Position numbers and translations under genes: made by a program
Notes under the pieces: generated by a model
What the model was told of the DNA's origin: nothing
Database searches by the model: none
Seen by the model: only the letters and a program-made list of their open reading frames with translations
In this document: in pieces, positions 3,071 through 60,377 of the stretch
Numbering within the stretch: the first letter of the stretch is position 1
Layout of the letters: the number at the start of each line of letters is the position of its first letter
NCBI GenBank assembly: GCA_021234155.1
Contig: JAJEKV010000011.1
Location: 14,175,255-14,239,254, forward strand
Source: Isoetes taiwanensis
Taxonomy: Eukaryota; Streptophyta; Lycopodiopsida; Isoetales; Isoetaceae
Direction of reading: 5' to 3'
DNA length: 64,000 nt

Positions 3071-3100
3071 ATAAATGCTTTTAGCTTGGCGGAGAAAGGG

Positions 3101-3420
3101 TCATCCAACCAGCATTTCATAATCGCTCGGAGCTTCACCAGCTTTCCAAACGCCAAATTCCAAGGGCAATTTCAGATCGCCAATACTGATATGGAGAAGA
3201 GAAGTGACGCCTTGAGGCCGTGTGATGTGGCCATTGGCGAGCTTAATGTCATAAGGGGCACGATAAAGTTGAGTGATGCCCAGTTGTCTTTGAAGTTTGT
3301 CCGTGATGAGGTTAACATCACTACCGCCATGAATCTGCACATGATTGATTTATTGATTACCAACAGTAGCGTGTACCGTGGGAGTAGAAGTGGCTACCGC
3401 TCCAACCAGAACCGTGGGTA
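3101..3420 (-). pseudogene. Retroviral-type aspartic protease region of element A
   Basis: The ORF at 3101-3340 carries QIHGGSDVNLITDKL, where plant gypsy proteases usually show an I-D-G-G-S-x-VN-type active site. Here the catalytic Asp position reads His, so this copy would be inactive. It continues with ANGHITRPQGV and ends ...DYEMLVG, the second conserved protease block (L-G/V-G type). The linker joining it to gag overlaps at 3350-3420. Element B has the same block at 18686-19141. Confidence 0.6.
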
Positions 3421-4044
3421 GTGGCAACTGTTCCTTGAGTGCAGGACACAACTTGAGAATGGTAGCAAGGCTCAAGTGGAATCTTAATTTTTGCAAGCTG
3501 CTTTTGTAGTTCCAAGGGAACATGAGAAAAAGGATCAGCAGGATCCAACAGTGCAGGAGTCTGAGGCATTGACACAGAGACTTCCTTGAGGAGTTCAACT
3601 TCGGTAGCAATGTTTGAATACTGTTGAGTGTGTGGGGGGGGGGTTTTGACATCGAAGGTGTTTCTGGACATTGTTGGGTGCGCGTGGTGGCATGAACATA
3701 GCAAGCGTGCGTTCTTCAGCAGCTTGCACAAGTTTGAGAATACTTTGGCGTACTTTAGGCATTACATGATGCATAAGCTTGTCAAGATCAGGGTCAAAAT
3801 GGACCATCTTGTGTCCATGGCGAAAGCAAGTTGCGTGTCGTGAGGAATGATCATCAAGGGGCGTGAGCCCTGGTTCTGGCGTGAGACCAGACCAACCCAA
3901 TTTGATTGTTGAACCGGAGGATTGAGAGCTTGATAGATTTCTTCTTGGGTTTGTTGATTGAAAGCTACAGAGGGAGTGGCCTGTTGAGGTCGCTGTTGTT
4001 GAGATGGCCTAGGCGGTTTCTTCAAAACCAGTCATGAGCTCTGT

Positions 4045-15639: not shown

Positions 15640-16870
15640 GAGGCGAAAGCCATTAACCAGTGTAGGTAATGGAGTGCCATCTAACTCAGCCAGTTGGAAA
15701 ACACTGGGTCGAACCACTTGAACAATCTGATAGGGGCCAAGCCAACGAAACTTAAGTTTTCCTAAAATTTTTGTACCTAGAATCGTAAAGAAGAACCAAA
15801 TCGCCTTCTTTGAATGTTTTTGTCTTCAAACGCTTGTCATGTAAAGACTTTTGCAATCATTGTCCATGAAGAACACCTAATATAAGCATCCCTTCGAAGT
15901 TCATCCAACCGTTCTAATTGATAGACCCTTTCTTTAAGTCGTGCAGTGGATTATGAGCGTGAGCCGGTTGAAAACGGAGTGTTGGAAGGATGTATTCAAA
16001 CGGCATGAGAGCTTCCCGACCATAAACCAACTTGAAAGGAGTGTGACTGTAGCAATTTTTTTTTGAACAAGTATTGTAGGCCCAAAGAACAAAGAGGGAA
16101 GTTTTGTTTGCCGGTCACATTGCATGAAGCGCCACAAATTTTCTTGAGAATGGTGACCGAGTTTTGTTGGTGCTTTCGCCAAACCATTACCTTGAGGATA
16201 GTAAGGTGTGCTCTTGTGATGATGTATCGAGAGATAATCCGTCAGCTCCGTGATAGTATGATTGATGAAATGGACACCACGATCACCGACCAGCTCAGGT
16301 GGGGCGTTTTAATCGCGTGATGATTTGTTGATAAAGGACCCCGGCGTGCTTGCTGCAGCGTTGTCGGGGAAGTGCGCAAGCTTCCGCCCATTTGGTAGCG
16401 TGGTCGGTGAGAACCAGAATGTAGCAGACGCACGTGTGCCGCGGCGGGGAGGATCTATGGGTCCCACAAAGTCCATTCCCCATTTGCTAAAGGGAAGTGG
16501 CGTGGCGACCGGCGTCAAGGGAAGAGCGTCATGGGCCGTGGGTCGTCCCACCCGCTGGCAAGCATCACACGTGCGGGCGTGGGCGTGAGCGTCTTTGAAG
16601 AGCGTGGGCCAAAAATACCCAGCTAGAAGGATTTTGCGGGCCGTGGTGTCACCATGAAAATGACCACCACCTAGCCCTTGATGAGCTTCTCGAACAATAT
16701 CTGGAACTTCATGAGGTAGAACACAGCGTCGAAGGATGGTATCCTTACCCTTTTTGTAGAGATGCCCGGCAACCATGGTGTAGTCATGGACCTCGCGGAG
16801 AAATTGATGTCGACGGGATTGCCGCTTGGCAGGAGAGAGCGTCGTATCCTCTGGTGGAAGGGCACCTGTG
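15640..16870 (-). pseudogene. Integrase of gypsy element B
   Basis: The HHCC zinc finger is intact (EAHQGLGGGHFHGDTT ... CDACQRVGRP) at about 16540-16690. The catalytic core follows (WGMDFVGPIDPP near 16470). Frame breaks occur near 16400 and 16200. The C-terminal part is read in pieces to about 15640 (TPFKLVYG, MPFEYILPTL, LQ-rich segments). It matches element A through its whole length, and A lacks the CxxC. It inserts element cDNA into chromosomes; this copy is broken. Confidence 0.85.
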
Positions 16871-16899
16871 AGGAGGTACTGCTGAAAATCATGGAACCA

Positions 16900-18121
16900 A
16901 TGTGGTGTGGCCGTGACTAAAAAGAGTTGAGCGTCAGGAAAGGCATCTGAGACTCCAGTTGAGGGATCGTCTGTGTGGATGCGTGAAAGATAATCCGGGA
17001 CCACATGAGATTTGCCGGCCTTGTGAACAATTTCAAAAGGGGCAAATTCTTGCAGAAGCAGGACCCAACGAGCAATGCGGCCCGTGGGCGTGGATTTGTT
17101 GATCAAATAAAGGAGTGCTTGGTGGTCCACAAAGAACTTGATTTGACTGCCCAAAAGGTAGTGACGGGCGTTGGACCGTAAAATGAGACCCAAAGCTTCA
17201 CGCCTGCGTGGCGAGAATAGTTGCGCCGCAAGAATTGAGTTTTCTACCGGCGTGTCGATTTGGTTTGTCGGTGTCGCGATCATATTCTTGAGAAAGAAAC
17301 AGCTCCAATAGCAAACGCCGAGACATCGACATGAACATGAAAGGGCTTGTCCCATTGAGGAGGAACAAGAACCGGGCCTGAGTAAGCAAAAGCTTCAAGC
17401 ATTTGGAAAGCGGCATCCGCCGGGAATTCCAAGCCCGTGTGGATTCATCACCCGTGAGTTTATGAATGGGATCTGCAATGGTCGCTAGTCCAGGAATGAA
17501 GGTGGAGTAATAATTGACCTTACCCAGGAAAGAGCGTGTCTCCTTGATATTGGCTGGGGCTTGAGCCTTGAGCACACAACTGATTTTGGCAGGATCGGTG
17601 GTGATACCTGCTTTGCTGACTACGTGGCCTAACAGAACACCAGAGGTGACACAAAAGGTGCATTTCTCAGGATTGAGACTAATGCCGGACTCATCACATT
17701 TCGGAAGACGAAGTTCCAACTTATCCAAGTGGTCAGCCATGGAACCAGAGGGCGAAGAAGTCATCTTGAAAAATTTGTAAGAAGGGATTTTCCTTCATGA
17801 AATCATGAAAAACTGAGAGCATGATGCGTTGAAACATTGAGGGTGAGTTTGATAATCCAAAAGGAACCACTTTGTAGGCAAAAGTGCCCCACGGGGTAGT
17901 GAAAGTAGTCTTGAGTTGATCAGATTCTTTGATTGAGATCCGATTGTAGCCGAAAAACCATCCATGAAGGAGTACATCTCATGTCCACCACCTCTTCCAT
18001 TACCTGTGCGTGCGGAAGGAAGTGGAAAATGATCACGCCCGGGGCCCGATTGAGTTTTCGGTAGTCCACACGCACGCCGGATCTTACCATTGTGTTTGAG
18101 GGCAATGACGATGGGGCTCAC
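16900..18121 (-). pseudogene. Reverse transcriptase and RNase H of element B
   Basis: The RT palm start VDYRKLNRAPG is at 17920-18105. The thumb LDKLELRLPKCDESGISLNP and SFLGKVNYYSTFIPGLATIA lie in 17198-17764. RNase H residues EALGLILRSNARHYLLGSQIKF, then DHQALLYLINK lie in 16900-17200. This is the standard Ty3/gypsy order and motifs. Frameshifts near 17770 and 17230 separate the blocks, and the F/YxDD palm core lies in a shifted stretch. Confidence 0.85.
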
Positions 18122-18685
18122 CCATTCGAATGTTTGACCTCATAGATCAATCCCGCAGTAAGGAGAGTTTGTCAATTTACGCCTTGACGCGATCCGCGGT
18201 AATTAGGGTTGAGCCGCATGCGCCGTTGCTAAACTGGTCGCGTGCATCGATTTGGTAGGAATGGTGAGTTCCCCAAGCTTTTGTTGATTCCCCTCAAGAT
18301 CTCGGTAACTCCAGGTAAAAATGTGTTTGAATTTTTGAATGCGGCTTGACGGCCCCGATAAGGGGCCTAAAGATTTGCGCAATGCGACAGCCGATTGTTT
18401 CCCACGCCCACGATCTCAACTTCGTGAGTCCGAATATGAGGTATCACTTCGTGTCCTCGACAATATGAGAGCGGCGGTTGAAGCATGACAGATGCGTGGC
18501 ACTCTGCGTGGTGAAAAAGAGAGGTTCTTGAGTTTCATCCAGCAGGGTTGCTTCATGACAAATAAGTGTGTACATCAACAGAGTTGCGGGAGGTTCCGCG
18601 ATCCGAAAAATGATCAACACGTTGGATTCTATTGCACGGAGCCGTAAGGGTCAAGCAAAGCGAGCCACCTGGTCCCGATCAAGAG

Positions 18686-19141
18686 TCATTTCTCCCCAAG
18701 GATCGAGATATTCGGTAGGATGACGAGGCGTACTTCGCAGTGGAGCCCGAACTTGATAAATATTCGAGCTTCTTCAATGCGGTAATGCGAGAGAGGGTTC
18801 CGCATGTTCAATGAAATGATCCGCCTGTTTCCAAGTCCATGGTGGCATTGAGGTGACCATCGGTGATGACTAACCGATCCGCGGGCCCAATAATGGATAC
18901 TCTTGGCCCGGCGGAGAAAAGGTCTGCCGACCAACATTTCATAGTCACCGGATCTTCGCCCGACCTTCCAAACTCCAAATTCCATGGGGAATCGAAGATC
19001 ACCTATGTTGATGTGAAGAAGAGGCGTCACCTTGAGGTTCCGTGATATGGCCATTGGCCAATTTGATGTCATATGGGGCACGAAAAAAGTTGTTTGATGC
19101 CCATTTGTTTGGCGGAGTTTATCCGTGATGAGATTGATCAA
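18686..19141 (-). pseudogene. Aspartic protease region of element B
   Basis: The ORF continues after the gag stop (QIGRGSA) and reads INLITDKL...GHQTTFFVPH, then LRFPMEFGVWKVG and DYEMLVGRPF. It aligns with element A at 3101-3340. The D-T/G-G-S active-site motif is degraded to GRGS just before the break, so no functional catalytic Asp is visible. Confidence 0.55.
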
Positions 19142-21508
19142 GCGCTACCCCGGCCAATTTGAACATGATTGACTTGTTGATTGCCCACCGTGGCATGGAC
19201 CGTGGGTGTAGAGGTAGCAACAGCCCCAACTAGAAACAAATGGAGTGATAACCGGTCCTTGAGAGCGGGACGAGTTTCAAAATGGTTGCCAAGCTTAAAG
19301 GAATCTTGATCTTGGCGAGCTCCTCTTGGAGTTCCAGAGGCACATGAGAAAAAAGGATCTGCTGGTTCCACGGGTGCTGGAGTGCGTGGTAATGAAGCAG
19401 CAACTTCTTTGAGTAAGTCAACCTCTGCAGCAATATTGGGATATGTCTGAGAGCGTGGAGGTTGAGATGTGGAAGGTGTATCTTGGCGTTGTTGAGCTCT
19501 GGTGGTGGCATGAACATTTGCCAAGGTGCGGCCTTCAGCAGCTTGCATGAGGTTCAAAATGCTTTGGCGAACTTTTGGCATGACATGTGGCATGAGTTTC
19601 TCCAAGTCAGGGGCAAAGTGAACCTTTTTGTCTTCGTCATGAGGAATGGTGTCGACTGCAAAGGCAGGTTGCGTGCCCTGAGGAATAATGGTTAAGGGGC
19701 GTGACGCCCTGGTCTGGCGTGAAACCAAACCAACCCAATTTGATGGCTGAACTGGAGGATTGAGTGCCTGAAAAATTTCTTCCTGTGCTTGTTGATCCAG
19801 CTGAGGTTGATTGGCTGGAGCGGGTTGATAACGTGATTGCTGAGGCGCTCTTGGTGGCTTCTTAAGAACTGGTCGCGGGCCTTGTTTGCCATTAGCAATC
19901 CAGAGTTGGTAAGCCGTGAGGCGGACCGATGTGGTCTGATTAGTGCCAGGAAGCTGTACCTGAACTTGTGGAAGTTGAGGACACGCCGTGGTGGTGTGAC
20001 CCCATTCTTGACAGTGATAACACTGAGCTTTAGAAGGATCAAAAGGAGGACGTGTGTTGGGTCCCCGTTGTTGCTCTTGTTGCTGATAGAGTTGAGTGGG
20101 GTGCGCCTGAAGTGGTGGTTGCTGATAATGGGATTGTTGCTGAGGTGTTGTTTGTACTTGATAAACAAGTTTGTTGCGGAACGGTGTAGGATAAGTGCGA
20201 GTGCATTCTTCCGTGGCATGATTGCACATGTTGCATCTTTTGCAATGAGGGGGGCCATTGGTGGAGTTGCACTCATTTGCCAAATGTCCTTGGTATTTGC
20301 ATATATGGCACCAGATTTGATCAAGGCTTCTGGATTGGCGTGTTGAGGCCGGGATGATACCGTGGGAACCATGACGAGTGGAATGAAAGGGAGCTCTTGA
20401 AGAGCCACGCCACGGGAGGAGACATTGACTGAGTGATTGACAAGGTCGATAGCCTGCTCCAAAGTCTTGGGACGCAGGTACTCAGTCATGAGTCGAATAG
20501 CTGGAGGAAGTCCTTGGAGAAACCGCACCAGAATCCGCTCGTGGTCGCACTCCTTGAGTTTACTTGGCGCAGAATGTGAAGTCGATCCATAAAAATCCCC
20601 TGGCGGAGACTCCGTGGGCTCTTGTTGAAGTTCATTGAGTTGCTTGAGATGAAGTTGATCATCATCCGTGGTCCCGTAGTGAGACAGAAAAGCAGTTCGC
20701 ATTTCGGACCAATCTTGTTTCCAGTGGCTTTTGTTGGACATGAGCCATTGATGAGGAGAGCCACGCAGAGTGGTGGAAAAGATGTGGAATTTCAGTTGAG
20801 GTTGCGCATGACCATTTAGGACAGCTAGAGCCTCAAATTCTTCCATGTGGGCCTGAGCACTTTGGTCTAAGGGTTTGCCTTTCGTGTTGCCAAAGGTGGG
20901 ATAAGTCGGTTCGTAGTCCGAAAAGGTAGATGTGAAAGTGCTGGGCTGGACAGGAACAGTGTAGTGAGGATATTGAGGTTGAGTTGGAGGTGGCATGGTG
21001 CCTGAAGGACCCTGATGAAGGGGTGACTGTGGTTGAGGAAGTGAAGGTGCCTGAGCATTGGTTTTGAGATCTGTAAGGTTGTAAACAGGAAGTGCAGTGG
21101 GAAAGGTATGGAAAGGAAATTCCTGGGTAGGCGCAAAAGAGACTTGTGGATATCCCTGCCCACCCGGGGGAGATGATGGTTGTGAAGGAAGGGGCGTATG
21201 GCCTGAAGAGTGATGGATGTAGGTGTGTTCAGGGGTATGAAAGTAAGGTTGAGAAGGTTGAGCCTGATAGGGCTCCTGATAGTGATGAGGGGACTGAGGT
21301 TGTGAGCAATGTTTGCATGCTTGGGGCGGGGAACTGGGACGAGACAGGACACGAGGGGTGGGTGGCGCCGACTGAGCCCTAGACCGAAGATGGCCTCCCT
21401 CAATGTCATAAGCAGATCCATACATGTCGCTGACGCTTCCGACGCCGATGACGCCCAACGTGATGCCGCCCGAGAAAGGAGTTCTTCTTCGCGTGAAGTT
21501 TCCGGCAC
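19138..21508 (-). pseudogene. Gag of element B
   Basis: A P/Q/H-rich N-terminal half is followed by a capsid domain (AHMEEFEALAVLNGH, TTLRGSPHQWLM, LTEYLRPKTL-type block) at about 20450-20900. After a frameshift near 20280 two zinc knuckles follow: HCKRCNMCNHATEEC and CYHCQEWGHTTTAC. A long C-terminal linker (HVMPKVRQSILNLMQAAEG) leads into the protease. Two overlapping starts exist: a short upstream frame from ATG 21508 (MPETSREEELLSRA) and the main gag frame whose first in-frame Met is MYGSAYDIEGG near 21427. The same overlap is present in element A. Confidence 0.82.
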
Positions 21509-21557
21509 ATGGCGGCGGAAAGAAAGTAGGATTGAATCGCACCCCCAGCGGCGGCGG

Positions 21558-22147
21558 TGTTTGGGGTCCGGGTTCGAACTCTGGAAGACAGCCCTCCTCT
21601 GGAGGACCCGTGGATCTAACAGAGAGTCCGGGGACTATGTCACGCCGGATTTGCAAGAAGAGAACAAGAAGAAGGAAAAGCGAACAAAAAGAACAATGAG
21701 AGGAAAATGATAAGCTTCCTTGATATCAATGATGAACATACATGAGCTCTCGTAATAGAGAGAAAAATGAAAGGAGACAAGACTCAAAACTCATCTAGAA
21801 CTCATGTGCGAGCTCTAGTCATATATATAGTACAATGGCCTTTGGCCCAATATAGACACTCCGGACCGATCTCTGTGCCGACTCACGGAAGGAGGCCTGA
21901 TTCTGTGAATGTGGGCGGTGCCTCTTGAAGTGCCTAGAATCATCTTGTGACGCCGACGCTGGCGGTGACAGCCGTCACTTGTCACGAGCGCGCCTCTTAA
22001 GCGCGAGGCTTTGGCTGCATGGTCTGCCGCTTGGTCTTCTGTGAGCCTTTGATGGCTGACCCGTGGGTGGACCGAGGATCCTTGAGCTTGACACAGTGCA
22101 TGTCAGATGCATGAATAGTCCCATGCCGGGGAGGCACAGGACTAACA
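21558..22147 (-). repeat. 5' LTR of element B
   Basis: 590 bp, collinear with 11066-11653. It ends TGTTTGGGGTC (inner, plus strand) and GGACTAACA (outer), giving TG...CA on both strands. It is followed by target duplication CTCCC at 22148-22152. Confidence 0.92.
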
Positions 22148-29883: not shown

Positions 29884-30303
<420 letters not shown>

Positions 30304-33521: not shown

Positions 33522-36464
33522 CTATGTCCACAGATGACCTTTCTTCATTTTTAAAATATCATACGCTTCTTTATACATATGTGCATCAGAAAGAATGTTT
33601 GACAAGAGAACATATGCACCACCACAGGCAGGATCCAGAAAAACAATATGGTAAAAGTAGCGCCTTCCTAATTCGATGTCCCCATGCAGTCTGCAAGCAG
33701 TAAGCAATGACATCCATCCTTCAATATTTTCTTGGTTAGCAGTCCAGAGTAAATCTTCAGCCTCTATGATAGAACCTGCACGACCCAGAAGATCAACTAT
33801 GCAAGCATAGTGTGAAGTATTTGGTACGATACCATGGCATTTTCTCATAGATCTAAAATACCAACGGCCTTCATCCAAGAGGCCAGCACGACTGCATGCA
33901 ATGAGGACACTAGTGAATGATACCTCGTCTGGCGCTATACCATCCTGGAGCATGCGTTCAAAGAACACAAGGGCAAGAAAGCCTTCACCATGGTGCGCAT
34001 ACCCTGTAATCATTGCATTCCAGGACACTATATTGCGATAAGGCAATATGCCAAACACTTTACACGCCTCCTCCAGGCTCCCACTCTTGGCATACATATC
34101 AACCACTGTGTTCCAGACGACAATATCTAGCGTAAGTCCAGTTTTGACAAGATGTTCGTGAAACAGCCTACCCTGATCAATTGCTCCAATGCAAGCATTC
34201 ATAACAATTGAATACGTGACATTATCTGGCTTCACACCTTCTTGCTGCATCTTTTCTAAGTGTTTTAAAGCAAGAAGGCCTTCACCATGCTGGGCATATC
34301 CTGCCATCATTGCATTCCATGAAACTACATCTCGAGTTGGCAATTTGCTAAATACCTGACTTGCCTCCTTATAACACCTGCATTTGGCATACATATCAAT
34401 CAAACTGTTTGCAAGAGAAATATCTGATTGGAGACCGAGCTTAATTATTTGCTCATGGACGATCCTACCTTGATTTTCTAAACCCATGGTTGCACATACT
34501 TTTAAAATGCTAAAAAATGTTACATTGATTGGGATTATGCCATTCAGCTGCATCTTTTCGAATAATTCTAACACTAAAAGATTGCCTTCAAAGTGGATGC
34601 ATCCTGCCATCATTGCACTCCATGTCACTACATCTTTGTCAGGCAATGTCTCAAAGACATTATAAGCCTCCTCTAGCCTTCCACATGTGGCATACATATT
34701 AATCAATGCGCTTCCCATTAGCGAACTTAATTTCATACCATTTCTAAGCATCTGATCGTGAACGACTCTGCCTTTGGTTGTGTTTTTCATGTCCGCACAT
34801 ACTTTTAGAAGCACCACATATATCACTTGATCAGCCTCTATGCCCCTATCTTGCATAATTTCAAAATACTCCAGAGCCAAATGACAATCTCCACTATGGG
34901 CATATGCTGCAATTATTGCACCCCAAGATACCACATCTTGATTTGGAAACTCTTCAAAAACTTTGCTGGCTTCCTGTAATTCCCCACACTTTGCATACAT
35001 GTCAATAAGCGTACTTCCCAGCACAGCATCCATCTTAAGTCCACTATTAAGGATCTGATCATGGATGGCCCTTCCCCGTGTTTTAGCCCCTATTGCAGTG
35101 CATGCTTTTAAAACTGCTAAAAAGGTCACTTTATCAGGTGTTATGCCCTGTTCTTGCATCCTCTGAAAATATTCTAAAGCTTTAAGGCCATCATCATGCT
35201 GGGCATATGCTGCAATGATTGTAGCCCATGATATCACGTTCTTACATTGTAACTTATCGAAGACCATACATGCCTCTACTAAGCTCCCATACTTTGCGTA
35301 AAAATCAACCAGGGCACTTCCAACCACAACATCCGATTGGAAACCCCTTTCAATAATTTGATCATGGAGAATCCTACCTTTCTCTAGCATGTTCACATCT
35401 GCACATGATTTCAAGGCAACACAAAAGGTTGCCCGATCTGGTTGTATATCACGCTGCTGCATCATTTCAAAACATTCCAGAGCCAGATAACTAATTCCAG
35501 AATAAGCGTAACCTGCTATTATTGCATTCCATGATACCACATTTTGATTCGGTAACCCATGCAAAACTTGGCTTGCTTCGTCCAGACTCTTGCACTTGCT
35601 GTACAGATCAACCAGGGCACATCCTATGACAACCTCATGCTCAAATCCACATCCTATGATTTTTTCATGGATGATCCTACCATGATGTATTGCCCCTATG
35701 TGAGCACATGCTTTCAATATCATTGAGAATGTAATTTGATCTGGACTTATGCATTGTTGCTGCATCTTCTCAAAACAGGCTACTGCTAAAGATCCCTCAC
35801 CATACTGGACGTACGCAGAGATCATTGAATTCCAAGCAACAGCGTCCCTACTTTTTAGCTTCTGAAACATGTTGCCAGCTTCCTCTAGATCACCACATTT
35901 GGCATACATGTTAACTAGGCTGCTCCCTACAACAACACTACATTGCAATCCATTCTGAATGATCTGATTATGGATATATTTTCCATGTAAAAGATCCTTT
36001 GACAGTGTGCATGCGTTAAGGACAGCAACATAAACAAAATTATTAATCTCCATACCTGATTCTTGTATCTTATCATATAATGCAAGCGCCATATCCTCCT
36101 GCCCAAGTTTAGCATTTGTCAATATGATTGCAGCCCAACTATGAGTACTTGGGATTGCAACATTGTTATATATCTGATTGGCTTCTAAAGTGCTTGCATT
36201 ATGGTGGAACAAACGAATAAGATGATCGCCCAAAACAGCCAAGGAATCAATACCACTTTGGATCATAAGAGACTGCAAACGCCTGGTACAATCCAAATCC
36301 TTTCTTTCTTGGCAAGCTTGCAGAAGGTAGTAAGCATCATTTCTGGTGATACTTATGCCCTGCTGCTTCATAATTTCTGCAGTTTGAAGAGCCTCCAGAA
36401 GGTGTCTCTGGCCGGAGAATTTGGTTAAACCCTTGCATGCTCCTGCTGTGGCAGGCCATAACAT
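33522..36464 (-). CDS. PLS-type pentatricopeptide repeat protein, E-domain truncated
   Basis: A single-exon, 980-residue ORF. At least eight ~100-residue P-L-S modules are visible, each with a W-x-x-[IM]-x-A/G-Y block (SWAAII, AWNSMI, SWNAII, SWATII, SWGAII, TWSAMM, SWNAMM, SWNAMI), followed by L[IV]DMYAKCG-like and GRxIHxQII-like helices. It ends with an E-like segment (LTACRLHGDIELGRRYF, YVLLSNILSDAHMY) and stops at KMKKGHLWT, before any E+ or DYW deaminase. Such proteins bind organellar RNA; PLS members usually specify C-to-U editing sites, with the deaminase supplied in trans when DYW is missing. The first ~30 residues lack acidic residues until position 26 and could be a transit peptide. 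The start ATG 36464 is the first in frame. No damage is seen, so it is probably expressed. Confidence 0.95.
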   Translation of the reverse strand: MLWPATAGACKGLTKFSGQRHLLEALQTAEIMKQQGISITRNDAYYLLQACQERKDLDCTRRLQSLMIQSGIDSLAVLGDHLIRLFHHNASTLEANQIYNNVAIPSTHSWAAIILTNAKLGQEDMALALYDKIQESGMEINNFVYVAVLNACTLSKDLLHGKYIHNQIIQNGLQCSVVVGSSLVNMYAKCGDLEEAGNMFQKLKSRDAVAWNSMISAYVQYGEGSLAVACFEKMQQQCISPDQITFSMILKACAHIGAIHHGRIIHEKIIGCGFEHEVVIGCALVDLYSKCKSLDEASQVLHGLPNQNVVSWNAIIAGYAYSGISYLALECFEMMQQRDIQPDRATFCVALKSCADVNMLEKGRILHDQIIERGFQSDVVVGSALVDFYAKYGSLVEACMVFDKLQCKNVISWATIIAAYAQHDDGLKALEYFQRMQEQGITPDKVTFLAVLKACTAIGAKTRGRAIHDQILNSGLKMDAVLGSTLIDMYAKCGELQEASKVFEEFPNQDVVSWGAIIAAYAHSGDCHLALEYFEIMQDRGIEADQVIYVVLLKVCADMKNTTKGRVVHDQMLRNGMKLSSLMGSALINMYATCGRLEEAYNVFETLPDKDVVTWSAMMAGCIHFEGNLLVLELFEKMQLNGIIPINVTFFSILKVCATMGLENQGRIVHEQIIKLGLQSDISLANSLIDMYAKCRCYKEASQVFSKLPTRDVVSWNAMMAGYAQHGEGLLALKHLEKMQQEGVKPDNVTYSIVMNACIGAIDQGRLFHEHLVKTGLTLDIVVWNTVVDMYAKSGSLEEACKVFGILPYRNIVSWNAMITGYAHHGEGFLALVFFERMLQDGIAPDEVSFTSVLIACSRAGLLDEGRWYFRSMRKCHGIVPNTSHYACIVDLLGRAGSIIEAEDLLWTANQENIEGWMSLLTACRLHGDIELGRRYFYHIVFLDPACGGAYVLLSNILSDAHMYKEAYDILKMKKGHLWT

Positions 36465-48955: not shown

Positions 48956-49277
48956 TTTTCAGAAATGTGCTTCACACTGTATTACCAAAATAATACTGAG
49001 CAAAAGAATGAGGAACAAACTCCCTCTACATGTTTCCACCGCTTGAGCATTTGAAAAGATTCCCTCCAGCATTAATGAAGTGGTTGGTTATTATTAGAAT
49101 TACTCATCGGTTACTGGAAAAGGCATCAACGTAATCAATGTTATACAATTTCTCAAACCACAAGTGCATTTCTTAAATCACAAATACAAGCTATACTTTT
49201 AAGCTATTTGGGGGTGGGGAGGGGGGGAAACATGGGGACACCAAAACTGATCCACTATAGCGTGAATCCACCCCCTA

Positions 49278-50235
49278 GAACCCTTAATCAACATCTCGAA
49301 CCCTAATCAAGGAACTCTAGCTGTAAGTTAGATATGTATGATTAGGTTAGATGTTATTCTGATGATTATCATGATATGCTGTTATGTGATGATGGTTGAT
49401 CATGTTTGCTCCTCTTGTATTGGGAAGAGGGATAGAGACCTAGTAGCCTTACTTAGTAATGCTCCTAGTTAGACCCTTTAGTTCCTATTATTATGTGGCC
49501 TGGGCACAGGATGCTGAGCGTGGCTACTGGGGACCCCATAGCAGGCTAGGCTTATGGCCGGTCACTTCGTGTGGGCTGGGCATGGCTCCGACACCTCCTA
49601 GGGCAATGGTGTTGCCCTGCCTCTCAAAAGTTGTAGGTGTTGGACTGGCTCTTGTTTTGGGGGGTAAGTCGGGGACGAATCGTGTGTCGCCATGATTCTC
49701 TAGCCGCCCGTGGAACTCTCTAGATCCTGGGAAGGGGAGATGCAACCCTTCCTGCCTCGAAGGACCAGGGAGATGCAACCTGGAGTAGTCCCGATGGGTG
49801 ATACCATGGGATTGCATATCCGGAAGGCTAGAGTCATGCCAGAGCCTGATCTAGCCCATATGCAAAGTATGCACAGGAGGGGCGAATTGAGTGGTCAACC
49901 CCAGCCATTGTCTATAGCCAGCCCCGCCATTGTTATCTTGAGGCCTAGCCATCAGTCTACCTCCGCATGAGTCTGAGCCTTGGGTAGGAGCTCTCATGAT
50001 TATCTCTGTTGTAGCTATGGATATGTGGATGTTGTAGTTCTGACATTGTTTCCGCTTCCGCTGTGATAGGAGCCTATAGGGGAAGGGTGCGTAAGACACA
50101 TTCGTGTCTCCTTCCCACACTAGGGATACCATGGAGTGCGGGATAGACGGCGGGCCCATGCGGTCGAAGGACCGGATGGGGGATTTCCTACGGAGTGTAC
50201 GACGGGGCGCCGTATATTTTGTAGGGAGCGTCAGA
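49278..50235 (+). repeat. 5' LTR of C3, second part
   Basis: It continues the LTR after the transposon: gaacccttaatcaacatctc matches 59279 onwards. It ends gtagggagcgtcaga (CGTCACA with one change). Relative to the 3' LTR it lacks a ~90-bp block (59500-59600 region). Confidence 0.88.
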
Positions 50236-50236
50236 A

Positions 50237-50248
50237 TGGTATCAGAGC
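50237..50248 (+). other. Primer binding site of C3
   Basis: TGGTATCAGAGC starts one base after the LTR end. It is the common plant PBS complementary to initiator methionine tRNA. Confidence 0.92.
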
Positions 50249-50779: not shown

Positions 50780-53657
50780 ATGGCGAGGACCAAATGCACT
50801 GCAAGGAAGTATAGCCCAAGGTGCACACCCTCAATAGCGGAAGCAGCAGCAGGCCCAGGAAAGAAGATCCCCGAGCACCTTCGACCGGGGAGGGAGGGGG
50901 AGTCGTCCAGCTCTACGGACGAGACTTTCCATGCCTCTCAGGAGGAGGCACAAAGTAGCTCCTCCGTCGAGACGCAGCAAACCGACGAGACCCTTCACTT
51001 CGGCTCTCTGTCCGACCAGGAGGGGGAGCAGGAGGAACAACACGAGCAACACGAGCAGCAGCAGCAACAACAGGAGCAGCAACAGCAGCAGCAACAACAG
51101 CCCCACCAGGAGGAGGTTGGCACCTCCAAAAAGAAGAAGGGGAAGGAGAAGGTGGCGGAGTGGCCAGAGGAGAAGGCAACAAGGAAGAAGAGGGAGAGAG
51201 AAAAAGGAGCAAGAAGAAGGGAGAAGAGGTCCAAAAGGGACCAGGACCACCCAAGGGGGACGGTCCACATAGTACGATAATGATTGGAAGTGTCTTTGCT
51301 AAAATCCTAGGGAGATTGCTTGAAAGTAAATTAAGTAGCTGGGCTGAACGAGAAGGCAAGCGAGCCAAGGGTCAAGCTGGCTTCAGAGTTAACCATAGTA
51401 CACTTGATCATCTGCTAACACTTTGTTCTCTAAGGGAGCAGGCTAAGAGGCCAGGAAAGGCTTTATACATTGCATACATAGATGTTTCTAAAGCTTTTGA
51501 CACAGTGCCACATCTAGGACTGGACATTAGAATGGAGAAGCTGGGAGTTCCGTCTTCATTGAGAGGTGCAGTGGCCAGGCTTTATGAAGAGGTCAGAGCA
51601 TGCTTATCTAAAGATACGGAAATTTTGAGTACGATTGGAGTGAAGCAGGGCTGCCCGCTGTCACCGACACTATTTGGGCTCTTTATTGACGAGCTCGAAG
51701 AGTGGTTGAGCACTTACGGGTATGCAGGGACTCGCTTGGGACACTTTCTGATCCAAATATTACTATATGCAGACGATGTAGTTTTGTTATCTGACACACA
51801 AGAGGGATTACAACAACATTTAAGTAACTTAGCCTCGTTTTGTGATATGCGAGGCATGAAGGTGAACATGGAAAAGACTAAATGTATGGTGTTTGGTACA
51901 GTCCAGAGACCTTATTTTGAATATAAGGGGGATCAGATTGAGCTTGTGAAGAGTTATAAGTATCTTGGCTTAGAAATCTGCTCTAATTACATATGGAAGG
52001 AATGTGTAAACAAGAGAGTTACAGGAGGTAAAAATGCATTGTATAGCATGTGGACAAGATGTCATAGGATCTCCCTTCAGAATTGGAGCCTACGGCGAAT
52101 GCTTTTTAGAACACTAGTCCAAACTGTGGTTTTATACGGTGTTCAAATATGGGGGCCGTCAATCTCGCCTTCTCTATGGCTAAAAGTAGAAAGTGTTTTG
52201 AAGATGTTTTTACAGGAAGAACTTGGGGTAAAGAAACAAATTCCATTTGCTATTCTATTAGCTGAAACAGGTATGCTCCCGCTTGAAGCTGAGGGATTGT
52301 GTCAAACTCTTACCTACATCACCCGAGTCAGAACACTTGACATGTCCAGGCTGCCAGTAGTAGCTACTGAAATAACTCAAGATAATGGCTGGATGCGAGA
52401 AGTTATTCAGTGGTTCCAACGATGGGGGATTGAAGAACAGGATTGGCCAGATACAGATGAAGGGATTAGGGATCTAGTCCAAGGGAAAGTTATGGAGAGG
52501 CTTTGGGGGACGAAGGGGTCAAGGATGGAATTTTATAAGCGAGAGGTAAGTCCCATGCTTATATTTGCTGATCAGGATTACCTGTGTAAGTCGCATTCAT
52601 TATGGATAAGAAGGACAATAGCAAGGTATAGAACAAGCTCACATCGCCTACATGTGGAGGTTGGTCGTTGGAATGGTACTCCTAGACTGGAACGTTTATG
52701 CACATTATGTGATGAACATCAAGTTGAAGATGAAGCACATACCTTCTTAAGATGCCCGAGATATTCAAAAATTTGGGATAGATATCAGATAGATACTTCA
52801 GATTTCTATACACTTTTACAGATAGATCCAAATTCGTTAGAAGTTGAACAACATAGATCCTTGTTGTTAAAATGTTATGTGTGATGTATTGATTTTCCTT
52901 TTGGAAAACATCTGTAATTGCTGCTTCTTGCCCTTAAGGGCTTCATGAAGCATGATTTAATATATTATTATTATTCTAATATTATAGAAGAACCTCGTCG
53001 GGACCCCACCGACGAGGAGGAGGAAGAAGAGAAAGAGGAGGAGACTGAAGGAGCCGGGCAGACTGAAGAAGAGCCCAAAGGAGACGCCAAGGAACCCTCA
53101 TACCCCGACGCTCGCCCACCATACCCGAAGTGGCCTAAGCCACCAAAGGTCATCAAGAAGCAGAAGGTGGGCGAGCAGGAATTCATGTTGAAGCAAAACC
53201 GTGAATTCCAGCGTCGTAAGAAAGTGTACCAGTCCGCCGATGGAAGAGGTACAATGATTGGTACTGTAAACAAAACATACAAAAGTACGTTAAGGGTGGG
53301 CGGCCGAAGAACCAGCCTAAGCCGCCACCACCAAGACCGGAGCTGCCGAAGAAGGTCCACCATGGACCTAATTCCAGGCATGCCCGAGTTTTTCGGGAGA
53401 TTAGGCACTTCCAGCAGTGCACTAATCTCTTAATCAGGAAGGAGCCGTTCGAGTGGCTCCTTCGCGAGATCATGCAGGAGTTCAGGACGGACTATAGGGT
53501 CACACTCCTAACCGTCCGGACACTGCAGGAGGCAGCAGAGGCAGAGGCGACACAACTTTTTGAAGAAGGGAACCTCTGCGCGATCCACGCCAAGCGGGTA
53601 ACAGTCATGCCGAAGGACCTGCACCTGGCAAGGAGGATTCGCAAGGAGAAGCCCTGA
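50780..53657 (+). pseudogene. Histone H3-like gene of retrotransposon C3 (interrupted by a LINE)
   Basis: It begins MARTKCTARKY, an H3-type tail with K4 and K9 positions kept, Gln5 to Cys and Ser10 to Tyr. About 165 residues of Ser/Glu/Gln-rich and then basic sequence follow (QQQQQ tracts; KKKKGKEKVAEWPEEKATRK). A LINE splits the gene after ...RGTVHI (51271). After 52984 the frame resumes EEPRRDPTDEEEEEEKEEE, then PKWPKPPKVIKKQKV. One frameshift near 53235 leads to the C-terminal histone fold (53352-53657): [77 protein letters not shown]. By hand about 56 of 87 fold residues equal the cellular H3 at 29893. Loop 1 has canonical H3 length, unlike typical CENH3. Its role is unknown; nucleosome incorporation or chromatin targeting of the element is speculation. 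Confidence 0.85.
51272..52983 (+). mobile_element. 5'-truncated LINE retrotransposon
   Basis: The coding frame starts inside the RT fingers (GSVFAKILGRLLESKL). It continues with GQAGFRVNHSTLDHL, YIDVSKAFDTVPH, GVKQGCPLSPTLFGLF, the YADD catalytic box at 51766-51777 and GMKVNMEKTKCMVF, and ends with a C-terminal zinc-type segment (CTLCDEHQVEDEAHTFLRC). The stop is at 52882-52884. The 3' end is AT-rich (ttaatatattattattattc) before the host sequence returns at about 52984. The endonuclease and ORF1 are absent, as expected for 5' truncation. The RT frame is open over 530 codons, so the insertion is relatively recent. Confidence 0.88.
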
Positions 53658-53892
53658 AGGCCTCTAATTTTATAAAACTGTATAAAATAAGTTTTCATGT
53701 ATATTTCTACTTACTCTCTATAAAAAGTTCTTTTCCTGTAAATTAACCCCTTATTAGCATAAAAGTGTATTTATATGGATTGAATTGTAAAACAATCTTT
53801 TGCATCATAGTTAGAATTTCCCTAATTGCTTAACCTCTATAAAAATTTCCTTAAAAAAAAAAAAAAAATCAAAAATTAGGTCAAAATCGACC
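53658..53892. other. AT-rich spacer after the H3-like ORF
   Basis: It contains likely 3' UTR-like sequence and a 16-base A tract (53855-53870). No coding features were seen. Confidence 0.6.
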
Positions 53893-54365
53893 CACTCCAG
53901 TCACTCCACGCCAAACGCCTCTGCGTTCGCGACGCAGGTCCCTTTCGTGCGAAGTGACCCGAGTCACTTGATTTGAAGTAAAAATGATCCAATTTTTGTA
54001 CTAAAAGATGTTAGAATGCTTAGAATTCGTCTAGAAATGCATTGTAGTACTTAATTTCTGCTAGAAATACCCAAAATACCAAAGATCAACCCACTTCCGT
54101 CACTCCGCGCCAAACGCCTCTGCTTCGCGACGCAGACCCCTTTCGCGCGAAGTGACCTGAGTCGGCCTAAATCACACTTTTAGACGTCCATTTAGCATGA
54201 AACAAGTTGCTAACTAGTCTAGAATCGATTCAAATAGGCATTTTAGTATCTTACAACCCTTAGAAATGTTTGTTTTACATAGAAATCAGCCCACTCCGGT
54301 CACTCCGCGCCAATCGCCTCTGCGTTCGCGACGCAGACCCCTTTCACGTGAAGTGACCCGAGTCG
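53893..54365 (+). repeat. Three structured GC-rich repeats in the C3 leader
   Basis: A ~73-bp motif occurs at 53893-53965, 54091-54163 and 54291-54364, with a period of about 200 bp and AT-rich sequence between. Each copy has an outer pairing (GTCACTCCGCG with CGCGAAGTGAC or variants) and an inner hairpin (CTGCGT-tcgcg-ACGCAG, shortened in copy 2). The separating sequences are much less similar. The position, between the H3-like gene and the next ORF, would suit an RNA control element. Confidence 0.75.
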
Positions 54366-54655
54366 ACTTAGTTTGACCATAAGTTGTCCAAAATTGATCC
54401 AACAAATTGCCATATAGTGTTTCTTGACTTGTTTTGCTTAAATTTGCACTTCATGTTACCTTAATTGGAGATCCATAGAAAACAAAGGCCTGTTCGATAA
54501 AGAACCCTTGTGCACGGAAACCTAGGCAGCCTTAGCCTATATAAGGGGACCTCATTTGCCATTTCCTCTCCACCAAAATTGCTCTCACTGCCTTAGGCGA
54601 TTTTCCAAGCTGTTGCCAATTTTTCCAAGCCATCTTCTACACCTATCTCTGCTCA

Positions 54656-56180
54656 ATGGCGCCCACGAACTTTGTTCAATGGTACAACAGTGCCAACCAC
54701 ATCCGTGAATTCCCTGCTGAAGAGGCCTTCCATGTGTTTGATCATCTCTTCGACCTCCATGCAACCCTGACTAGGACCCCTTACTACACTAATATAGTTT
54801 GCCAGTATGACCAGCAGATATTACCCTGGGAAGTTAGCCTTCCACCTAGGGGAGGGAAGTGGGTATCCTTAGAGTCACCGAGTCAAGCCATTGGGGGGGG
54901 GGGGATCTAGAGTCAAAGGGCAGCTGTGGGACAGGACAAAGAATATGCCAGCTTACATGAGTTGCAAGGCATGCATGCATAGATATGTTTCAGCACATGT
55001 GGTCCTCTCCTTATTTATGCAGTACAGGGCTGTCAACAGGGTGGGGGAACCCTCGATCTAGCCTTTGGACCTAGCACCACTCAACACAAGGATGGAGCAA
55101 GGCCAGATCCATGAGATCGAATCAGCAGAGTACGAGTACCATGGCACGGCATCAGGAACATTCCAGATTGAGCAGGATTATGAGCAGCTAGAAAAGGAAA
55201 ACCCAGATTGGGAGAGCAGGGAGGCGGAAAGAATGGAGAGGCGGATAGCAAGGCACGATGACGACATCAGGCGGGCCAATGAACCACCTATCGACATCAC
55301 AGCTCTATCGCCGATAGTAATTGAAGGGGAAGAATACACCTTGGCAAACGACATCCTCAACCTCCTATACTGCCAAGAAGAAGGGCTTAGAATCGACGAG
55401 CTTCTAGGCCTGATTGCAAAGGAGCAGCAGAGCGACTTCATCGATTACTCCTATCAGGAAATCCCAAGGGAAGTAGCAGAGCGACACTCCTACGCCGGCG
55501 AGACAATGTCCGACATCGCCGCCTACGAACAAATAAGGGAGTTGTACCATCGACAGCAGCCAATCATCCCAGAGGAGGAATTTCAAGAAATCCAAAACAG
55601 GTTGTACAAACCAGGGAGGGGCCCGAGCTCTAGCCGAACGGTTCGATCAAGGAGCATGCGGGAAGCATCCAGCGGCATCAACTTGGAGAGTGCAACCAGC
55701 ATGTGGAGGGATCACGAAGATCTCCTAGCATTGGACGTCTACGGTGGAGCGGCGCAAAGAAAGGGCACCGGTACTCAGACCATAGGAAGGGGAAAGGCGC
55801 TCCGATACTATCTTCCAGTCCTCAGTCAGGGGCAGATGATAGTCTTCCACAAGGAGTTCAGCCCGCGAGGGGAAGAATCTGTGGCACTCCTCATAGCGCT
55901 TTTGGGGTTTGGACAACACGCCAAGCTGAGCAGCAACACGGATCAAATCATCCTTTTCAAGAGATCCGTGGCCCTCTACAACCTTGACTTCGCAAGGGGT
56001 CACTTAAGAGACGCACCAATGATGGTCGTTGCAGCAACAGCACCCCCACTCCCTCCACCTCAAATGGCTCGAGCTCTCGAAGGAGGATCCTCCAGGAACA
56101 TCTTGCGGAATATCGGCAAGGGCCTTCGACTCAAGGATGTGAAGAACTTCTTCAGCTCAAGGAAGGGCTCTTGCCGATGA
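54656..56180 (+). pseudogene. Unrecognised ORF upstream of gag in C3
   Basis: It starts MAPTNFVQWYNSANHIREFP at 54656, breaks at a run of Gs near 54893-54903, then continues in other frames (CKACMHRYVSAHVVLSLFMQ). From 55065 a 371-codon ORF runs to 56180. It has acidic/basic helical segments (EKENPDWESREAERMERRIA) and a middle region LANDILNLLYCQEEGLRIDE. Its C-terminal domain (LRYYLPVLSQGQMIVFHKEF, LLIALLGFGQHAKLSSN) ends basic (KNFFSSRKGSCR). I do not recognise any family. A TATA-like ctatataag lies at 54536-54544, about 110 bp upstream, so it might be transcribed separately or spliced to gag. Confidence 0.5.
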
Positions 56181-56409: not shown

Positions 56410-57712
56410 AACACCGGTTCAGGGTCTCAAGGCCAAGGCCGACAACACCAGTGGCAACCTAGGAATTTGTTCGGCCGGGAACACGACGACGAACAAGACA
56501 TGACAATTGAGACAGTGAATGCAAGATTGGCCCAGATGCGGAATCAGATGCAGCAATTACTACAGTGGGCAATACCACTAATGCATGCTCAAGAGTATGG
56601 ACCGCCTCCACCACCTCCACCACCTGTGGGAGATATTGACGAAGCACCTCAGCCGGAAAGAGAGGAAAATCAGGCGCCCGAGAAGGAAAGGGAGAAGAAG
56701 AGGCAGGAGGAGCTCATCTCGTTCCAGCTCTACCAGATCAGAGACCTCAGACAGTGGATCCGGCAGTAGCTCCGACAGTGAGTCAGACACGTCACAAGGC
56801 AGGAACAAGAACAGAAGGACAGACGACTACCAAAAGAAGGTAGACAGTGCAATGAGTAATGTCTGGAAGACAAGAAAGTTGGGACAGTTCTCAGGGAAGG
56901 ATAGGTCAGGTATGGAGGCAGAAGCATGGCTTGATGAGATGGAAGAATTCGGGAACCCTTATAATATGAAGGATAAGGACATAGGTAAAGTGGCAACGGC
57001 AAATTTGATAGGACCAGCCAGAATATGGTGGAAAGGATATGCAAAGTTCAATAAGCTGAGAAGGAACAATTGCAAGTTCAGGACTTTCAGCAAGGCATTC
57101 CGCAAGCACTACGTGCCGAGATCCCACACAAGCAGGCAGATACAGCAGTTTTACAGGCTGGACCAGGGCAACTTATCCGTAGCCAAGTACACCGAAGACT
57201 TTATGAGGCTGAGACTCAATGTACCTAGAATCACGGAAAGGCAAGCAGTGGATGGATACATTGAAGGGCTGAACAGCAATATTAAGAGGTTGGTTCGGGC
57301 AATCAACCCAAGGACAGTCGGGGAGGCCGAGGATAAGGCCTTGAGTGTAGAGAAGGCACCAATAACTCCAGGGCAGAAACAACTATCATTCAAAGGGAAG
57401 ACAACAGGGCAGTATCAAACTAGGCAGGCGGCCTCTACACCAGCAGGGAGCCAGTACCAAGGTACGGCTCAAGGGAAGTCTTTTGGGGACCGTAAGCCAC
57501 AGGAAGGATCCAAAGGCAAGTCAATTAAGTTTCTCCTAGATAGCATCCCAAAGGAGAAAAGACAGGAATGCATAGAAAAGAAATTGTATTTCTGGTGCTT
57601 CCAGCCAGGGCACCGAATGCACAATTGTCCCTTCGTCATGCAGGCGGCTCTAGCTGAACTTGCCGATTGGGAATCACCAGCCGAGGGAGATGAAGAAGAA
57701 GGTGACCAATAG
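56410..57712 (+). pseudogene. Gag of C3
   Basis: An N-terminal acidic/proline block (DDEQDMTIETVNARLAQM, PPPPPPPPVGDIDEAP; 56467-56769) shifts frame near 56690 into a Ser/Arg run and the capsid domain (AEAWLDEMEEFGNPYNMKDK, ANLIGPARIWWKGYAKF, LSVAKYTEDFMRLRLNV). The zinc knuckle WCFQPGHRMHNC keeps three of the four metal ligands: the first Cys is Tyr (LYFWC). It ends GDQ, then an in-frame TAG (57710-57712) before pol. Confidence 0.8.
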
Positions 57713-59101
57713 GAAGCCCAAGACTTCATAGAAGGTGAGAGTAAAATTTGTGCAGCTATTGAGTCAGGGGATGTTAAGAATCAGTCTACAGTAATCTCGG
57801 CGGAAGGAATTATAGATAGCAAGCCATATATAGTCTTGATAGATACAGGTAGTTCCCACAACTTTGCCTCTCCAAGGCTTGCTGCTCTCACGAAGAATAA
57901 GATCTTGAAGTCCAAGCCAAGGCCAGTTAGCATGGCAAGCGGCGCCATTCGTCACATTAAGGAGAGGAGGATCAGTTTTGACATAGATCTTAGTGGAAGC
58001 AAGTGGCCGATGGCGCCGAAGTGATGGACATTGGGAAATATGACCTCATAGTAGGAATGGAGTTCTTAAGGCTAGCAAAAGCTATGATAGATTGCGACCG
58101 CAGCGAAACCTCCATGACGGCACCGGACGACAATCGATACGTAGTAAAAGGTAAGAAGGTAACTTCAGTTATGCAATGTATCTCTATGAAGCAGTTGAGG
58201 AAAAGCATAATAAGAAATAGGGTGGATTACATCTTGAGGCTAGAGGCAGTTGACCCAAGTAAAGCAAAGGAAAGTGAGTCAAGTGAAAATCAGTTGCCTA
58301 GGCCGATAGCAAGGCTCATTAAGGAGTTTCAAGATGTATTCACGGATGAAATCTGCCAGCTACCACCTTATAGGGGTGTAGAGTGTGAAATCACATTAGC
58401 TCCAGACGCTAAGCCGACCAGCAAGGCACCCTATAGGATGAGCACTCCAGAGCTGGTAGAGCTCAAGAAGCAGTTGCAAGAATTGCTTGAGCTCGGATTC
58501 ATAAGAGCAAGCGTGTCTCCTTTCGGAGCACCCATCCTTTTCGTCAAGAAGAAAGACGGAAGTCTAAGGATGTGCATCGATTATCGTCAGCTTAACAAGC
58601 AAACGATAAAGAATAAGTATGCTCTGCCAAGGGCAGATGACTTGATGGACCAGCTCCAGGGAGCAAAAGTCTTCTCCAAGATTGACCTAAGATCGGGCTA
58701 CCATCAAATAAGAATCAAGGAGGAAGATATACATAAAACCGCCTTCAGAATGCGGTATGGGCACTATGAGTTTAAGTAATGCCCTTTGGCTTATCCAATG
58801 CCCCGGCAACCTTCATGCGCCTAATGAATAATATCTTCCGCGAATTCTTAGATGAATTTGTCATCGTATTCTTCGACGACATCCTAGTCTACAGCAAGAC
58901 CATGGAAGAACATTGTCGGCACTTGAGAAGAGTTTTGGAGAAGCTAAGGCGGCATCGATTGTATGGCAAGCTTTCTAAGTGCCACTTCGCAACAGGCTGA
59001 GTGGAATATTTGGGTCATGTGGTGTCATCTGAAGGGATCTCCACTAATCCGGCAAAGACAGAAGCCATAGTAGATTGGCCGGCACCAAGAAATGTGCGCG
59101 A
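57713..59101 (+). pseudogene. Protease-reverse transcriptase of C3 (truncated pol)
   Basis: The frame continues directly after the gag TAG. The protease active site is VLIDTGSSHNFASPRL (57830-57880). After a shift near 58005 come [16 protein letters not shown] and the [37 protein letters not shown] base is lost at 58777 (EFK then TAATG), followed by [20 protein letters not shown] and [10 protein letters not shown] (catalytic FxDD near 58873). TGA at 58998 precedes VEYLGHVVSSEGI. Coding ends at WPAPRNVREV, fused to LTR sequence. RNase H and integrase are missing. The motifs are typical Ty3/gypsy, close to chromovirus RT by eye. Confidence 0.85.
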
Positions 59102-60377
59102 AGTGTGTGCAAGATTGTGGAGTGAGCACGGCTTCGACCACTTCAAGGACCATGGAGACGCCAGGAATGGGAGGGAGCGCTTTGGGAGCAGGTATTAGGA
59201 GTAGTGTTCATAGTAATTCATCTGGAAGTTAGCACTCCAGATGAATCAATATTTCGTATCTAGAGTAGAGCCATCCTAGAACCCTTAATCAACATCTCGA
59301 ACCCTAATCAAGGAACCCTAACTGTAAGTTAGATATGTATGATTAGGTTAGATGTTATTCTAATGATTATCATGATATGATGTTATGTGATGATGGTTGA
59401 TCGTGTTTGCTCCTCTTGTATTGGGAAGGGGGGTAGAGACCTAGTAGCCTTACTTAGTAATGCTCCTAGTTAGATCCTTTAGTTCCTATTATTATACGGC
59501 CTGTTCATAGGAACCCACCGGGCTAAGGGGGCTATGACGTGACTCAGCACTACATAATGGGGCTAGAGGAGATACGGAGGGAGGGTCTCTACTGAGCGTG
59601 GCTACTGGGGACCCCATAGCGGGCTAGGCTTATGGCCGGTCACTTCGTGTGGGCCGGGCATGGGTCCGACACCTCCTGGGGCAATGGTGTTGCCCTGCCT
59701 CTCAAGAGTTGCAGGTGTTGGCCTAGCTCTTGTTTTGGGGGGTAAATCGGGGACGAATCGTGTGTCGCCACGATTCTCTAGCCGCCCGTGGAACCTCTAG
59801 ATCCTAGAAAGGGGAGATGCAACCCTTCCTGCCTCGACGGACCAGGGAGATGCAACCTGGAGTAGTCCCAATGGGTGATACCATGGGATTGCATATCCGG
59901 AAGGCTAGAGTCATGCCAGAGCCTGATCTAGCCCATCTGCAAAGTATGCACAGGAGGGGCGGATGGAGTGGTCAACCCCAGTCATTGTCTATAGCCAGCC
60001 CCGCCATTGTTATGACTCGGTCTGCTCTATCTTGAGGCCTAGCCGTCAGTCTACCTCCCCATGAGTCTGAGCCTTGGGTAGAAGCTCTCATGTTTTATGG
60101 CATATGATTATCTCTGTTGTAGCTATGGATACGTGGATGCGCTACCCTTCCGAATAGTATGATGTATTGTTATTGCTAGTTCTGACATTGTTTCCGCTTC
60201 CGCTATGATAGGAGCCTATAGCGGAAGGGCGCGCAAGTCACATTCGTGTCCCCTTCCCGCACTAGGGATACCCTGGAGTGCGGGATAGACGGAGGGCCTA
60301 TGCAGTCGAAGGACCGGATGGGGGATTTCCTACGGAGTGTACGGCGGGGCGCCGTATATTTTGTAGGGAGCGTCACA
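59102..60377 (+). repeat. 3' LTR of C3 (lacks first ~366 bp)
   Basis: From agtgtgtgcaag it follows 39302-39478 and then, without interruption, 49278-50235. It ends CGTCACA at 60377. The uninterrupted stretch gagccatcctagaacccttaatc (59269-59291) is the empty site for the DNA transposon. Confidence 0.9.

Follow-up and report, generated by a model that had tools for sequence, protein, structure and literature searches.

A Ty3/gypsy retrotransposon lineage of Isoetes taiwanensis with an apparent histone H3 variant as its first gene

On sequence evidence, a lineage of Ty3/gypsy retrotransposons in Isoetes taiwanensis has, fixed as its first gene, a histone H3 variant of its own, and this gene is not an accidental capture. 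We base this reading on the many copies that carry the histone fold, on the selection seen in variants shared between copies, and on a second family whose genes are arranged in the same way. The order in the lineage would be primer binding site (PBS), long-tailed H3, ORFA, ORFB, gag, and pol. The element was found in a stretch of 64,000 nucleotides, which we call the window and to which the coordinates below refer. An initial annotation had proposed that a Ty3/gypsy element here carries a captured and remodelled H3, and the recurrence of the fold and the purifying selection on it support this.

Layout of the window element

All the features of the element are on the plus strand. The 5′ LTR (49274 to 50233) forms a direct repeat with the 3′ LTR (approximately 59275 to 60375), with 94 to 96% identity in pieces. 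The two LTRs are about 5% diverged (51 differences over 960 aligned positions; K2P, 0.055), and we did not see a clear direct repeat (target-site duplication) at their outer ends. We read the PBS TGGTATCAGAGC at 50237 to 50248 and take this motif to be of the plant initiator-Met tRNA type. Pfam identified a Ty3 capsid gag at 56467 to 57712 (PF19259, E 2e-15; PF03732, E 3e-15). It is followed by a pol remnant (57713 to 59103) that extends up to part of the reverse transcriptase (RT) (RVT_1, E 2e-12) and is short by approximately 3.4 to 3.6 kb relative to copies L032 and L036. The histone-like gene, here called gene 1, had been placed between a PBS and a Ty3 gag, and both landmarks were borne out.

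We found that gene 1 starts with the tail MARTKCTARKY at 50780 and that the H3 fold terminates at 53657, as initially annotated. It had been read as a single ORF, but a LINE fragment splits it and the frame shifts near 53245. The first part (50780 to 51272) is an ORF encoding the H3-like N terminus MARTKCTARK and a Gln-rich, charged linker; its ATG is in register in 27 of 29 loci of the window's family (family A). An acidic and proline/lysine-rich linker follows at 52986 to 53245 in a frame that differs from that of the fold, and three-frame reading places the shift downstream of the acidic stretch and upstream of the fold. The gene ends with the fold and a stop (53244 to 53657). This is a true H3 fold, as had been claimed (PF00125; 92 bits against a cutoff of 26.4 bits; E 4.3e-26).

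The 1.7-kb middle of the gene (approximately 51270 to 52985) was considered as a part of the protein and rejected. It is the 3′ end of a 5′-truncated LINE with a TTA-rich tail (RVT_1, E 1.7e-32; a zf-RVT match at E 0.006 is under its cutoff), and it is private to the window copy: none of 10 other copies read outwards carries it, and the uninterrupted gene 1 junction was read in 6 copies. A clear target-site duplication was not seen around the insertion (51270 to 52985). The insert of about 350 residues described between tail and fold was therefore a mixture. The charged linker is real and is about 280 residues long in four open copies; the rest is foreign LINE sequence.

Two ORFs with no assigned function, ORFA (54656 to 54910) and ORFB (55065 to 56180; 371 amino acids), lie between gene 1 and gag. 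A Pfam profile search gave no match for either, and a single-sequence structure model of ORFB was unusable (pLDDT, 37). Three direct repeats lie at 53883 to 54391, in the interval between the histone gene and ORFA, with a spacing of about 200 bp and pieces that are 79 to 89% alike; similar self-matches are present in some other family A copies. Elsewhere in the window, a host H3 gene is present at 29893, where the initial annotation had put a cellular H3. There is also a minus-strand ORF of 980 residues at 33522 to 36464 that by eye is like pentatricopeptide-repeat (PPR) proteins, and two further retroelement stretches, at 868 to 5900 and 16309 to 21656 on the minus strand, contain ORFs that by eye resemble RNase H, integrase, and gag. 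No Rfam families or tRNA genes were found within the 64-kb window.

Recurrence of gene 1, selection, and a second family

The initial annotation had proposed looking for the fold in other copies. Our search covered the I. taiwanensis genome (1,658,258,908 bases in 1110 contigs). With the fold as a DNA query, all 40 scored candidates matched, namely the window copy plus 39 more that are 85 to 91% identical; with the fold as a protein query, all 150 matched, namely the window copy plus 149 more that are 83 to 92% identical. These matches were scored from 1728 and 10,021 first-look candidates, respectively, numbers that are not copy numbers. By hand count, 23 of the 150 scored copies are in stop-free frames of at least 380 codons, one of which (L017) shifts frame upstream of the fold. 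Intact copies had also been sought, and four family A copies, picked for their long open frames, are open from the ATG through the end of the fold.

We read 10 loci outwards. Similarity to the window LTR was found upstream in 8 of them and gag downstream in 5, with one of these gag matches spanning just 107 bp. Four loci have a match to pol, and in 2 of the 10 a 3′ LTR follows it; the order LTR, H3, gag, pol was found in 4. The PBS motif TGGTATCAGAGC, with at most one mismatch, lies upstream of the H3 ORF in 18 of 29 family A loci. In L036, pol encodes, in order, a protease (weak, barely above the cutoff), RT, RNase H, an integrase zinc-binding domain, and an integrase C-terminal domain. The integrase core of L036 had no Pfam match, owing to a break in the frame where the two ORFs meet. 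A chromodomain lies at the integrase C terminus of this family A copy (PF00385, E 1.4e-10) and is deleted from the window copy. These pol domains, together with the chromodomain, make family A a chromovirus. By eye, the L036 chromodomain apparently lacks two of the three cage aromatics (as defined in an excerpt of PMC6317226), and the gag of L032 has the zinc-knuckle motif CX2CX4HX4C.

Some gag copies have no histone fold nearby. Among 40 scored gag copies, 15 (that of the window included) have a listed same-strand fold match no more than 10 kb away, as paired by hand-matched coordinates. We examined the upstream stretch of 12 others, a sample chosen for lacking a listed fold match, and found a broken fold in 2; in the other 10, no clear fold was visible where one was expected. 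One of these 10 has a junction of LTR to post-histone region, one has the post-histone region alone, one is shifted, and one stretch begins just downstream of the expected fold position. The remaining six have no similarity to the upstream part of the element, although one of them (L057) has a weak histone-like match of 39 residues (E 1e-6). In the gag copy L060 (C919), the LTR is joined straight to the post-histone region, which makes it a deletion derivative that lacks the histone gene. Thus, copies that are deletion derivatives or have been displaced are common.

We compared variants among 30 family A copies, namely the window and 29 copies taken by DNA identity rank, a ranking that does not favor synonymous change. 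Variants common to at least three copies comprised 109 synonymous and 28 nonsynonymous changes and no stops; singletons comprised 38 synonymous and 96 nonsynonymous changes and 4 stops. The neutral expectation for the nonsynonymous-to-synonymous ratio is 2.2 to 3.2, depending on the transition weight. Shared variants differed from singletons (Fisher P of 8.5e-18) and from the neutral expectation (P of 1.5e-33), and singletons did not differ from it (P of 0.70); these values take variants as independent and are rough. Pairwise dN/dS was 0.086 over 137 codons, 0.058 in the linker just before the fold, and 0.099 in the fold. We concluded that gene 1 of family A is, to judge from these patterns, selected while the element is mobile and decays neutrally after insertion.

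A second family, family B, emerged among matches to the host H3. A host H3 query found 15 loci at 99 to 100% and 135 others at 72 to 89%, and many of the 135 are in frames of at least 400 codons (longest, 567). Four family B loci are 79 to 81% identical to host H3, and their surroundings include 71 to 78% similarity to the window LTR. All four have a gag ORF (by eye), and three have the exact PBS TGGTATCAGAGC. Gene 1 of the family B locus L065 encodes 420 residues (MANIKSAPDPSTL...) with a C-terminal, near-canonical H3 fold (PF00125, E 1.7e-40) and is followed by ORFA and ORFB (together at 2708 to 4956 of L065) and then gag. Between this family and that of the window, ORFA is 22% identical (E 7e-5), ORFB 24% (E 8e-7), and gag 57% (E 2e-66). 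Since all three are homologous, the gene order is older than the split of families A and B. By parsimony, the histone gene would be older than this split as well. In a tree of the folds, family A forms one clade and family B another, which is compatible with one capture or two.

A PF00125 search of the genome gave 150 scored matches, all above the cutoff, with the host H3 loci as the top 15. Among the other matches, we found two further types (MPRFKLTV... and METPKQVY...), whose N-terminal parts seem by eye to be related to those of family B. Across 20 family B-type copies, which were chosen on the fold alone and ranked by protein score (a ranking that leans to low dN), the fold dN/dS was 0.023 at a mean dS of 0.86. 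Shared variants there were 74 synonymous and 7 nonsynonymous, and singletons were 40 and 12. A dN/dS below 1 in the fold had been proposed as a check, and the values of 0.099 in family A and 0.023 in family B contradict neutral evolution. Gene 1 is almost certainly a selected gene of the element.

This selection bears on the idea that gene 1 was captured by accident and spread without function by hitchhiking, which we consider very improbable. LTR elements do transduce host genes (PMC7264820, in excerpt), and gene 1 is broken in all 27 copies nearest the window that have a recognizable start (the in-register ATG noted above). Nonetheless, the depletion of nonsynonymous changes among shared variants, the dN/dS of about 0.02 in a second family, and the 23 long stop-free frames (with L017 shifting upstream) all argue against it. 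We rejected a single accidental capture on the presence of the fold in many copies and on purifying selection. Least probable of all is an assembly chimera or a host histone gene inserted as a nested piece: many contigs show the same junctions, and the linkers and fold residues are element specific, even though the window copy does contain a nested LINE.

The encoded protein and long-tailed H3s in public sequences

The four open family A copies encode M-A[R/Q]TKQTARK (H3 residues 1 to 9), a linker of about 280 residues, and then the fold. Residues 1 to 9 are kept in all four, with R2Q in one, and F replaces S10. One of the four has the N terminus MAQTKQTARKFG; the other three are alike among themselves. 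Across family A N termini, K4 is present in 32 of 32, K9 in 31 of 32, and S10 in 1 of 32. Between K9 and the fold, the linker has many charged residues and Gln. Gene 1 derives from an H3 of which family A kept the tail start, with K4 and K9, and the fold, with the long linker between them and serine 10 lost.

The best solved relatives of the window fold are H3.1, H3.2, and H3.3 (E of about 1e-29), and the fold is 62% identical to chain 8kcb_F (H3.1/H3.2) over 89 columns. A structure model of modest confidence (mean pLDDT, 65; pTM, 0.39) places helices at 45 to 59, 66 to 79, 88 to 114, and 123 to 132, the αN-α1-α2-α3 layout. The best Foldseek rows for this model are nucleosome entries, with TM scores of 0.52 to 0.68 by target in the rows listed, 0.45 to 0.47 by query, and root mean square deviations of 5 to 15 Å. 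Scoring above the Pfam cutoff and modeled with the H3 helix layout, the gene 1 domain is, as predicted, an H3 histone fold.

Residue comparisons rest on our own alignment and on conventional H3 numbering. On this numbering, most family A copies keep R63, R69, R72, R83, C110, H113, R116, D123, and L126, the last five of which are presumably residues of the H3-H3′ bundle; the window copy has W at 69. In family A, RYRPG of the αN region is lost and residues 56 and 84 are Q and V, so that any nucleosome it forms would be expected to be loose. Most family B copies keep RYRPG, K56, and F84. CenH3 proteins have a longer loop 1. We rejected a CenH3 identity: the window fold aligns to H3.1 with no gap or insertion in loop 1.

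The tails differ between families. By eye, a lysine at position 4 is retained in the four family B loci (MANTKSAP... and similar starts) and in the two further types, whereas the context of K9 is not. L091, of another type, has STGGK before the fold as a possible tail remnant. In a test for tail remnants, family B and L091 gave z of about 6, mostly from the KPHRYRPG end, and family A was at chance in three of four.

We also searched public protein databases. The fold query gave 27 long H3-fold proteins among 203 candidates, and none of these was close to family A (best identity, 62%). P0004, P0006, P0008, P0010 to P0012, P0014, P0015, and many of P0029 to P0105 are proteins of about 339 residues, from unannotated public contigs, that form a large multicopy family. 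The P0004/P0011 design is RTKQTARK, a nonserine at position 10, a linker of 200 to 300 residues, and an H3 fold. We took the best 120 of 6913 P0011 relatives, from 7947 scored candidates; some clusters from this search have up to 41 members at 90% identity, which suggests repeats. Among proteins fetched or listed, the pattern M.RTK.[TIM].RK, which includes K4 and K9, fits 65, of which 34 have serine 10 and a canonical tail and 31 do not. Position 10 in the 31 is Q in 24, E in 3, R in 3, and N in 1, many of them close relatives of each other. A query with the family B N terminus found none among 4881 candidate public proteins, and a search of viral contigs gave no match for P0011 or P0004. The P0011-type proteins, which have unrelated linkers, suggest that further genomes may contain retroelement histones.

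Possible roles of the variant and relation to known systems

The element shares its LTRs, Met-tRNA-type PBS, Ty3 capsid gag, protease, RT, RNase H, integrase parts, and (in family A) chromodomain with the plant chromoviruses (the Tcn1, Galadriel, Tekay, Reina, and CRM clades). It differs from them in having three extra genes between the PBS and gag, the first of which is the H3 variant. Mobile genomes that encode their own core histones include marseilleviruses, with histone doublets, and bracoviruses, with an H4. Those are DNA viruses, whereas here a retrotransposon encodes a lone H3 with a linker inside its tail. Host H3.1/H3.3 and CenH3 have the same fold, but the element H3 has a rebuilt tail and is encoded in dispersed LTR elements.

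Selaginella elements are described, in the excerpted text of PMC3350952, as having gag-pol, followed in one of them by two short ORFs; that excerpt mentions no histone. Orchid Ty3 elements carry an AlkB-type demethylase as an additional ORF (PMC9289625, in part). As here, a captured host domain was fixed as an extra gene, for which an antisurveillance role is proposed; there it is an RNA demethylase, whereas here it is a core histone in a gene order common to two families. Searches of the open-license literature showed no retrotransposon-encoded histone. By term search, the word "histone" is absent from PMC7264820, PMC10541799 (Isoetes sinensis), and PMC8566536, appears twice in PMC9289625, for marks and demethylation, and appears once in PMC6317226. 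The I. taiwanensis genome paper removed repeats with a BLASTX match to plant proteins from the repeat library (PMC8566536, in excerpt). Such filtering would tend to drop these elements, and their H3 ORFs would then pass as host genes.

We propose that the variant, encoded 5′-most on the element RNA, would pair with H4, use host H3 chaperones, and enter nucleosomes. Deposition would probably be at the element's own DNA, at new integration sites, or at host heterochromatin. There, the long charged arm would replace the normal H3 tail, most normal tail marks would be impossible, and the S10 phospho-switch would be absent. The outcome would be that silencing is blunted or redirected. We assign this entire series of steps, ending with deposition that works against silencing, a probability of roughly 0.45. 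Within it, the variant most likely joins H4 in chromatin. The strong constraint on the fold in both families, near canonical in family B, argues for H4 pairing and deposition rather than for a free tail. The tail arm, together with the absence of S10 and of the majority of modifiable tail residues, argues for altered reading or writing by the silencing machinery. Since the K9 context is absent from family B and from the two further types, a K9-based role would not be general. The apparent lack of two cage aromatics in the L036 chromodomain does not favor a loop in which the element's integrase reads the element's own methylated H3. A more tentative version of our proposal is that the elements operate a chromatin of their own. 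The variant, supplied by hundreds of copies or more, would build element-specific nucleosomes that keep the K4/K9 peptide (in family A) and remove the S10 switch along with the majority of the other tail marks, so that heterochromatin is escaped or rewired.

Two other roles, each unlikely in our estimate, were weighed against deposition. The free protein could act as a histone-mimic decoy whose long, flexible ARTKQTARK arm soaks up H3K4/K9 writers and readers, with the fold as a stabilizer or chaperone binder. This would fit the retention of residues 1 to 9 while those from 10 on are replaced and the absence of S10 from all 31 noncanonical, pattern-fitting long-tailed H3s; it sits poorly with the strong constraint on the fold and with the missing K9 motif in the family B loci and the two further types. 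Alternatively, the variant and host H4 could coat the cDNA or RNA of the element, whether inside particles or within the nucleus, or could tether the preintegration complex to chromatin. The position as first gene of the RNA, the charged linkers, the two further conserved genes ahead of gag, and the chromodomain at the integrase end are all consistent with such packaging or targeting, but gag already has a zinc-knuckle motif of its own in L032.

For annotators, the finding is a warning that element H3 ORFs could be mistaken for host genes. If the variant is deposited, these elements would add a possible new origin for host H3 variants, and they would offer a natural test of which H3 residues (tail 10 to 36, S10, and K56) are needed for silencing. 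Transposons would then supply a building block of silencing chromatin and would not be only its targets.
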